A stretch of 37,676 bases of DNA from the NCBI GenBank assembly GCA_937888365.1, contig CALBFA010000087.1, forward strand, positions 1 through 37,676, in the 5' to 3' direction. Each line of letters opens with the position of its first letter. Within the stretch, counting starts at the first letter, position 1. A program made the translations under genes and the position numbers. The stretch comes from an uncultured Fidelibacterota bacterium (GTDB lineage: Bacteria; Fidelibacterota; UBA8477; JABMPR01). Shown piece after piece: positions 36,985 through 37,676 of the stretch. Below the pieces are notes generated by a model. The model made no database searches. It was not told where the DNA came from and worked only from the letters and a program-made list of their open reading frames with translations.

Positions 36985-37067
36985 AGGCGCTTAGCTCAGC
37001 AGGTTTAGGGCATCCCGACATACATGTCGGGAGGGTCAGGGCTAAGTATCTAAATATTTGAAAACAG
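36985..37067 (+). repeat. 83-bp tandem unit 1: tRNA-Val-derived repeat with anticodon arm replaced by a palindrome
   Basis: The first 30 nt align with the 5' half of the tRNA-Val gene at 37151 with three differences (36985, 37001 and 37010). In place of the anticodon arm stands the palindrome CCCGACATACATGTCGGG (37014-37031). The 3' side reads AGGGTCAGGGCTAAGTATC: there is no T arm and no acceptor 3' strand, so it cannot be a normal tRNA. GCTAAG at 37041-37046 could pair with CTTAGC near the 5' end, giving a self-contained structure. The unit ends with the spacer AAATATTTGAAAACAG shared with unit 2. Confidence 0.85.
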
Positions 37068-37150
37068 GGGCGCTTAGCTCAGCTGGTTTAGGGCATCCCG
37101 ACATACATGTCGGGAGGGTCGGGGCTAAGTATCAAAATATTTGAAAACAG
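37068..37150 (+). repeat. 83-bp tandem unit 2: tRNA-Val-derived repeat with anticodon arm replaced by a palindrome
   Basis: Second copy of the unit, again exactly 83 nt before the next start (37151, the true tRNA). Its first 30 nt match the tRNA gene except GAGC to GGGC in the D stem. The palindrome is at 37097-37114, followed by AGGGTCGGGGCTAAGTATC and the spacer. Like unit 1 it lacks a T arm and the 3' acceptor strand. It is closer to the true tRNA than unit 1, suggesting serial duplication. Confidence 0.88.
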
Positions 37151-37228
37151 GGGCGCTTAGCTCAGCTGGTTTAGAGCATCTGCCTTACAAGCAGAGGGTC
37201 GGGGGTTCGAATCCCTCAGCGCCCACCA
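37151..37228 (+). tRNA. tRNA-Val (anticodon UAC)
   Basis: A full cloverleaf with encoded CCA. Acceptor GGGCGCT (37151-37157) pairs with AGCGCCC (37218-37224); D stem GCTC/GAGC; anticodon stem TCTGC/GCAGA with loop CTTACAA, anticodon TAC; T arm with TTCGAAT; discriminator A and CCA at 37225-37228. The anticodon UAC reads GUA valine codons. A terminator follows at once. It is the only intact tRNA in the array of four tRNA-related copies. Confidence 0.96.
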
Positions 37229-37270
37229 ATAGAACCTCATTTGATGGGGTTTTTTTGTGGAAAAAAATAG
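37216..37270 (+). repeat. 55-nt exact direct repeat, copy 1 (tRNA 3' end plus terminator)
   Basis: Starts in the T stem of the tRNA-Val gene (TCAGCGCCCACCA), continues through the terminator and ends at GGAAAAAAATAG. An identical 55-nt copy lies at 37622-37676, 406 bp downstream. The bases before the two copies differ (C versus A). The two copies bracket the GIY-YIG gene. Confidence 0.95.
37233..37256 (+). terminator. Rho-independent terminator of the tRNA-Val gene
   Basis: AACCTCA (37233-37239) and TGGGGTT (37245-37251) form a 7-bp stem with one G-U pair and a 5-nt loop, followed by T to 37256. It is duplicated exactly at 37639-37662. Confidence 0.85.
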
Positions 37271-37294
37271 AATCATACGATGGCCCTATAATTA

Positions 37295-37552
37295 ATGCGT
37301 ACTGCAAGCAAGTTTACGACTTATATTTTGGAAAGTGACTCTACGAAACGATTGTACATTGGTCAAACAAATGACATCGAACGACGTATTACACAACATC
37401 AAAATCAGCGTGTGAAATCAACGAAGAATCGCGGACCATGGAAATTATTATATGCCATATCTTTTGAAACGCGTTTAGAAGCTGTACAGCTGGAGCAAAA
37501 GTTGAAAAAAATGAAAAACCCTGGAAGGGTACGCTCATATATATCTAAGTAG
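37295..37552 (+). CDS. Small GIY-YIG endonuclease domain protein
   Basis: An 85-residue stand-alone GIY-YIG nuclease domain of the UPF0213/YhbQ-like kind. The core shows TYIL (9-12) for the GIY strand, YIGQTNDIERRITQH (21-35) with the YIG strand and the catalytic-type Arg in the following helix, KNRGPWKLLYAISF in the third strand, and LEAVQLEQKLKKMKN, whose Glu matches the metal-binding position. No DNA-binding domain is fused to it. It lies between a functional tRNA-Val gene and a tRNA-derived fragment, inside a 406-bp direct-repeat interval, and its stop codon touches the next tRNA-like sequence. There is no clear ribosome binding site. A role in moving or recombining the surrounding repeats is inference. 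Confidence 0.82.
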   Translation: MRTASKFTTYILESDSTKRLYIGQTNDIERRITQHQNQRVKSTKNRGPWKLLYAISFETRLEAVQLEQKLKKMKNPGRVRSYISK

Positions 37553-37676
37553 TTTTAGAGCATCCCGACATACATGTCGGGAGGGTCGGGGGTTCGAAGG
37601 ACCTTGTACCGCCACGCGGTATCAGCGCCCACCAATAGAACCTCATTTGATGGGGTTTTTTTGTGGAAAAAAATAG
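37553..37676 (+). repeat. Fourth tRNA-Val-derived copy, broken by two hairpins, reaching the window end
   Basis: From TTTAGAGCATC (37554-37564) the sequence matches the tRNA D arm. The anticodon arm is then replaced by CCCGACATACATGTCGGG (37564-37581). AGGGTCGGGGGTTCGAA (37582-37598) matches the 5' half of the T arm. A 24-nt insertion (37599-37622) replaces the rest of the T stem and contains the hairpin TACCGC-CAC-GCGGTA (37607-37621). From 37622 the acceptor 3' strand, CCA and terminator repeat 37216-37270 exactly. The 5' acceptor strand is missing, so this is not a functional tRNA. The window stops at the last base of the repeat. Confidence 0.88.
37639..37662 (+). terminator. Duplicated copy of the tRNA-Val terminator
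   Basis: Same 7-bp stem and T run as at 37233-37256, offset by 406 bp, within the 55-nt direct repeat. It could end transcription of the GIY-YIG gene. Confidence 0.8.

Follow-up and report, generated by a model that had tools for sequence, protein, structure and literature searches.

The end of the window (the window being the whole stretch of DNA analysed, 37,676 nucleotides) is probably occupied by a one-gene element of a widespread family, whose members are ~365-400 bp long and lodge in structured-RNA genes. The sequences make it likely that this family is mobile DNA. The initial annotation had proposed that a nuclease, palindromes and a tRNA target may together form a very small mobile or gene-conversion system, and this proposal is supported by the recurrence of the arrangement and by filled and empty sites. 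The comparisons cover the anatomy of the locus, its recurrence, a 371-bp difference between filled and empty sites, tandem arrays, purifying selection, clustering by tRNA isotype and co-variation of hairpin and nuclease.

Organization of the tRNA-Val locus

The locus occupies the last part of the window and contains the following features.

36987-37048 (about), + strand: degenerate tRNA-Val copy 1, without a nuclease gene; the palindrome TCCCGACATACATGTCGGGA at 37013-37032 replaces the anticodon arm (83-nt tandem, exact palindrome)
37070-37131 (about), + strand: degenerate tRNA-Val copy 2, with the palindrome at 37096-37115 (83-nt tandem, exact palindrome)
37151-37228, + strand: intact tRNA-Val (anticodon TAC), the occupied target gene (ARAGORN; Rfam, 73.5 bits)
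37233-37256, + strand: terminator-like hairpin and T run between tRNA-Val and the nuclease gene (from the sequence; recurs at the contig end)
37295-37552, + strand: gene of an 85-aa single-domain GIY-YIG nuclease (PF01541, 2.2e-17)
37553-37634, + strand: pseudo-tRNA-Val copy 3, located 3' of the nuclease gene, with two arms swapped for palindromes
37563-37582, + strand: palindrome TCCCGACATACATGTCGGGA in the place of the anticodon arm; the tRNA sequence picks up again at nt 44
37607-37621, + strand: second palindrome TACCGCCACGCGGTA, at the place of the 3' side of the T arm
37622-37676, + strand: second copy of the tRNA 3' end and terminator, reaching the contig end (exact repeat)

The tRNA-Val, the 85-aa GIY-YIG gene and the palindromic tRNA-derived copy had been described in the initial annotation, and all were confirmed. 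The two palindrome-bearing pseudo-tRNA-Val copies that stand in tandem upstream of tRNA-Val were absent from it. The 27-nt palindrome motif exists in three copies in the window's genome, every one at this locus. The Rfam scan of the window found no further RNA beyond tRNA-Val, with one antisense match below threshold. Two open frames run across tRNA-Val, 37141-37338 (+) and 37157-37276 (-), and frames of this type frequently enter annotations as spurious proteins.

The tRNA 3' end and terminator form an exact 55-nt repeat (37216-37270 and 37622-37676, spacing 406), which cannot be chance. The duplication reported at the outset is real, but its length of 55 nt is set by the edge of the assembly, and the repeat runs further. 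The window is all of contig C87 in a draft genome of 2.53 Mb and 110 contigs, and the contig stops at 37676. The first 55 nt of contig C59 are identical to window 37247-37301; after one mismatch the identity continues up to 37354, within the nuclease gene. The shared stretch of 86 nt has two sequences leading in and two leading out, and each contig end lies 55 nt from the branch. Because C59 begins with this exact 55-nt identity, the ends of C87 and C59 look like k=55 overlaps of an assembly graph. C87 most likely continues into C59, which is the only linear path. If this join holds, the real repeat would comprise 86 exact nt and about 52 nt more, running into a truncated second GIY-YIG gene, and the order of the locus would be tRNA-Val, nuclease, pseudo-tRNA, truncated second nuclease and peroxiredoxin-like gene. 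In C59 (L002), downstream of the likely junction, a 43-nt inverted repeat (177-219 and 1007-1049, 86% complementary, core CCCTGTCCTTTAGGGCAGGG) brackets the peroxiredoxin-like gene.

A repeat that stops exactly at a contig end with a k=55 overlap is what would be seen if the duplicated copy were an assembly artefact, a possibility raised in the initial annotation. However, isolate contigs of 250-450 kb contain the same structure in their interior, as do single-contig genomes. This refutes the artefact for the family, and its chance of explaining the copy in the window is practically nil.

The nuclease is a bare GIY-YIG domain

The PF01541 match and the presence of the catalytic Tyr, Tyr, Arg, His and Glu place the protein in the GIY-YIG superfamily. 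In the AlphaFold2 model (mean pLDDT 92) it is a bare GIY-YIG domain, whose core spans the whole 85 aa. Residues Y10, Y21, G23, R31, H35, E67 and K71 are conserved throughout the family, in which the nuclease length is about 75-110 codons, and the GIY-YIG catalytic set (Y10, Y21, R31, H35 and E67) is kept in at least 140 of 146 relatives. UPF0213 BH0048 (1zg2) is the closest solved structure in both sequence and fold, and a fold match to Slx1 was also obtained (E 9e-4 to 5e-3). Against the group I intron endonuclease model the protein scored 20.8 with a cut-off of 56. Matches to defence-system, NCBIfam and PHROG models were weak and partial, and no homologue was found in the phage and plasmid collections at E 1e-5. 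The median pairwise dN/dS of the Flavobacterium copies was 0.08, and the gene is, as judged from its sequences, under strong purifying selection.

Recurrence beside structured-RNA genes

The window's genome contains three other small GIY-YIG matches, one at tRNA-Asp and two as neighbouring copies at tmRNA. At the tRNA-Asp site, part of the tRNA 3' end and the terminator is repeated after the gene, and the palindrome is TCCCGACCCACGCGTCGGGA. The two adjoining GIY-YIG genes after tmRNA (L011:1469-1980, - strand) have a different hairpin type, CTACGCTCGTCAGAGCGTAG.

When ~85,000 species genomes were scanned, 46 relatives were found in Neomarinimicrobiota, Bacteroidota, Acidobacteriota and Patescibacteria, most of them adjoining a tRNA on the same strand. 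Within the window's phylum, which the relatives indicate to be the Neomarinimicrobiota/Fidelibacterota, 92 of 245 genomes have the protein, and 86 of 106 loci lie no more than 300 nt from a tRNA or tmRNA, all on the same strand and 0 on the opposite one. The chance expectation near tRNA is ~0.4%, calculated from 37 tRNAs per 2.53 Mb. At these 86 loci the nuclease is downstream of the tRNA in 75 cases and upstream in 11. Relatives are carried by 74 of 118 sampled Bacteroidota genomes, with a maximum of 22 copies in one genome, and for 43 of 50 Bacteroidota loci the distance to a tRNA or tmRNA is at most 300 nt, again on the same strand with 0 opposite. More than 15 tRNA types host nuclease loci. 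Homologues lying mostly away from tRNA genes would have spoken against the proposal made at the outset; they were found instead mostly beside tRNA genes, of many types, where duplicated tRNA ends and palindromes recur. Partial tRNA duplication is frequent at the loci; of the 87 phylum loci that have a tRNA or tmRNA in the vicinity, 30 gave no significant duplicated tRNA segment.

Two of the remaining Bacteroidota loci abut RNase P RNA genes.

L302:1501-1707: GIY-YIG gene beside RNase P RNA (1724-2102)
L294:1519-1725, - strand: GIY-YIG gene beside RNase P RNA (1003-1502, - strand)

Since these genes stand directly at RNase P RNA, the targets go beyond tRNA and tmRNA. Among the 20 remaining loci of the phylum, about ten are cut off near a contig end and one is an array 400 nt from a tRNA. 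About 8-9 of the 106 have no recognisable RNA gene nearby and are away from contig ends. Rfam, run on ten loci without a nearby tRNA, found a tmRNA end in L195 and nothing else. The loci L168, L170, L173, L179, L184, L185, L190, L200 and L059 have no tRNA or Rfam RNA in reach, and could be decayed sites or sites at other targets.

Hairpins occupy the places of tRNA arms

Near the nuclease genes, palindromes of the form TCC[CG]G..C[CG]GGA reach a density of 1.25 per kb; the far flanks of these loci have 0.015 per kb, so that the enrichment is 85-fold, and 61 of the 106 phylum loci have the motif nearby. In the tRNA copies a perfect hairpin replaces one arm, most often the anticodon arm and less often the T arm. 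At the palindrome-tRNA junctions, 35 cases have nt 26 as the last tRNA base before the palindrome, and 36 have nt 44 as the first base after it; these counts include tandem copies and chance matches and are read as peaks, not as independent events. The positions neighbouring both peaks are nearly empty. These peaks indicate that the palindrome takes the place of precisely the anticodon arm (nt 27-43). A minor peak, with nt 49 on one side and 58-65 (58, 63-65) on the other, is consistent with the T arm.

The tRNA isotype and the hairpin were also placed on a nuclease tree, which is a quick tree of short domains. The isotype required 43 changes, and no fewer than 81 in any of 300 shuffles, so tRNA type clusters on the tree. 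For the hairpin arm type 6 changes were enough, against 13 or more after shuffling within tRNA isotype, which indicates that the hairpin sequence follows the nuclease clade and not the tRNA. Shared descent contributes to both signals. At tRNA-Met, L154 has the TCCGGC hairpin of its own nuclease clade, of which the other tRNA-linked members are at tRNA-Asn.

Filled and empty sites

The initial annotation had named empty tRNA sites in close relatives as support for mobility, and such filled and empty pairs were found in two groups. For Flavobacterium, 150 genomes were searched and 30 loci of the orthologous tRNA-Pro region were compared. In L251, which has no nuclease, tRNA-Pro is followed by the terminator AAAAGTCTTTTC...GAAAAGACTTTT. 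In L263, tRNA-Pro is followed by a different terminator, AAAAGCCGAACAGAAATGTTCGGC, then by the nuclease, by a tRNA-Pro copy in which TCCCGCTTTAAAGCGGGA occupies the place of the anticodon arm, and finally by the terminator and flank of L251. After the pseudo-tRNA, L263 and L251 share a 71-nt identical run and 126 of 140 positions; after the intact tRNA they share 39 of 140. The upstream flanks of both loci match the L022 query at 90-95%. The difference between the two is a precise block of 371 bp with GIY-YIG as its sole gene. The block brings a replacement tRNA 3' end and terminator, and the host terminator is displaced downstream. In the second group, the genus of G008 (Neomarinimicrobiota), the tRNA-Ala orthologue of G019 lacks an element, those of G005, G008 and G012 are accompanied by the gene, and that of G018 by a hairpin array without the gene.

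In one filled and empty pair, insertion looks the same as a precise deletion between tRNA 3' ends. Insertion is favoured because the element carries its own terminator and because its distribution is patchy. For the locus of the window, no empty site was found among relatives with the neighbouring outer-membrane gene, because the relatives have no tRNA beside this gene and synteny is lost.

Arrays and scars were found as well. L245 has four units at a spacing of 365-366 nt, with a host-type terminator at the end of the array. In L253 nothing but the element terminator and the first codons is left, as a scar, and in L246, L248-L250, L254-L256 and L258 the hairpins are present and the gene is absent. 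L204 and L258 have, 3' of the tRNA, nuclease-free tandem arrays of hairpin, tRNA 3' end and terminator, which resemble non-autonomous derivatives. The single-contig genome of L123 (2207-4489) has four nuclease copies of identical score near tRNA-Asp, spaced by 692 nt, and the unit is almost twice the usual length. L305 (1789-4549) contains a tandem of eight nuclease units, each ~365 nt, at a tRNA-Met 3' fragment; a full tRNA is missing from the vicinity, and the fragment may be the distal attachment site of a genomic island.

Proposed mechanism

The chances are about even that these are autonomous elements of ~0.37 kb with a bare GIY-YIG nuclease and without recombinase or transposase, whose hairpins are exchanged for arms of tRNA, tmRNA or RNase P RNA genes while the target is regenerated. 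The unit consists of a tRNA 3' half with terminator, the GIY-YIG gene, and a tRNA 5' portion ending in a perfect hairpin. On insertion, the element would give the tRNA a new 3' half and terminator, by which the tRNA remains intact. Downstream, it would leave a pseudo-tRNA with the hairpin as anticodon (or T) arm, followed by the original 3' end and terminator of the host. The form of the filled site corresponds to what a junction of tRNA 5' part, hairpin and tRNA 3' half would give if it recombined with the tRNA through the shared 3' half. The loci L049, L128 and L163, in which the nuclease is upstream of an intact tRNA, fit an exchange through the 5' half. As an intact tRNA is regenerated beside the element, the site would be reusable, which would yield tandem arrays.

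The part of the nuclease in this scheme is more tentative, and hairpin recognition is given a little less than an even chance. The nuclease might recognise stem-loops in single-stranded or extruded DNA, namely the hairpin of the element and the matching arm of the target, and nick at their foot. Stem-loop recognition is the simplest link, since the hairpin occupies the position of the target's own stem-loop. That the nuclease acts on the repeat or on the tRNA structure had been suggested in the initial annotation; the co-variation of palindrome and nuclease and the exact arm replacement are consistent with such an action. The exchange would be carried out by host recombination or repair across some 30 nt of common tRNA sequence, the host being the proposed source of strand exchange because the protein is a catalytic domain alone and no integrase is present. 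Mobility is the likely cause of the patterns described above; hairpin cleavage, and a circle, a single strand or gene conversion as the intermediate, are proposed steps.

Alternative explanations and relation to known systems

A free-standing homing endonuclease would make a double-strand break in element-free tRNA alleles, and host recombination would then copy the element from the donor chromosome. GIY-YIG is a homing-endonuclease fold, and tandem arrays are frequent in the nuclease family. SegB, a GIY-YIG homing endonuclease located in a tRNA cluster of the T-even phage T6, has an activity that is required for tandem amplification of the tRNA and nuclease segments (PMC13096335). SegB is like the present proteins in being a GIY-YIG nuclease within a tRNA region, but it is a phage protein, whereas here a bare catalytic domain is encoded in the chromosome beside a hairpin-bearing tRNA copy. 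Typical homing enzymes have a separate DNA-binding region, which the 85-aa protein lacks. Homing also normally destroys its target, whereas the intact tRNA is regenerated beside the element (tRNA-Val; L263), and it gives no role to a hairpin that replaces exactly one tRNA arm. Homing is therefore regarded as unlikely, though it keeps an appreciable chance. A domesticated host function is improbable. The nuclease and the hairpin-bearing pseudo-tRNAs would then serve to guard tRNA genes or control them, perhaps by acting as a decoy or processing signal, which would agree with the strong purifying selection and with a replacement of the anticodon arm so exact that it could preserve a tRNA-like, non-coding RNA fold. 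However, the elements are patchy even among close species, scars and decayed copies exist, and many unrelated tRNA types are used.

It is very improbable that a resident tRNA-nuclease unit was only duplicated in tandem by unequal recombination and inherited vertically without moving. Such a history would explain the tandem units flanked by tRNA repeats, and the second nuclease at the window's locus as a truncated duplicate, but not the presence and absence between the species of L251 and L263 with their matching upstream flanks, the element-borne terminator unlike that of the host, the use of more than 15 tRNA types, tmRNA and RNase P RNA, or the many copies per genome in some species. Remnants of integrase-bearing islands, in which the integrase had duplicated the tRNA end and the GIY-YIG gene was passive cargo, are extremely improbable. 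The 3' ends of tRNAs are classic integrase sites, and the L305 array may be an island end. As in islands and prophages, the tRNA 3' end is duplicated and an element-borne end restores the tRNA (L263 versus L251). The inserted block, however, totals 371 bp with one gene, no site-specific recombinase is present in the ~0.37-kb unit, and the L245 array is nothing but repeats of the one-gene unit. Cargo would also not give the clustering of tRNA types or the tracking of hairpins with nuclease clades.

The small mobile-element reading has close parallels in REPtrons (RAYT/TnpA-REP, HUH) and IS200/IS605, in which hairpins and enzyme co-evolve and nuclease-free hairpin copies occur (PMC8266576, PMC6006769). 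Recognition of single-strand hairpins is established for RAYT enzymes (PMC8266576). The likeness lies in one small nuclease gene flanked by short DNA hairpins and in the nuclease-free hairpin copies, and palindromes co-vary with the nuclease and are locally enriched here too. The enzyme there is an HUH tyrosine enzyme; here it is a GIY-YIG nuclease, with linkage to structured-RNA genes and exact arm replacement. REPtron palindromes are intergenic and genome-wide, whereas the window's genome has the motif at one locus alone. Among known proteins, the UPF0213/YhbQ-like small GIY-YIG proteins share the bare domain. They include the Ssn single-strand nucleases of Neisseria; Ssn reportedly acts on repeated sequences in single-stranded DNA. 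To our knowledge, none of these proteins, Ssn included, is linked to tRNA. Slx1 is a eukaryotic repair enzyme that works with a partner and cuts branched DNA in a structure-specific manner, but it forms no mobile unit.

A literature search with partial coverage (few subscription papers, no bioRxiv preprints) returned no description of such elements, and an earlier description is possible. Since a defining feature of each kind of mobile element considered is missing here, the elements are judged, within this coverage, to be new by architecture.

If the mobile-element reading is true, the family would be a very common and overlooked form of selfish DNA, and its ~0.37-kb members would rank among the smallest known autonomous mobile DNA. 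Site-specific use of tRNA genes would then need no integrase. The elements would be a source of partial tRNAs, tandem pseudo-tRNAs and contig breaks beside tRNA genes, and many proteins labelled merely 'GIY-YIG nuclease' would gain a function. One short protein and a hairpin would form a minimal system in which to study structure-guided DNA insertion, and since the anticodon arm is replaced exactly, short oligonucleotides allow a direct test of the recognition rule.
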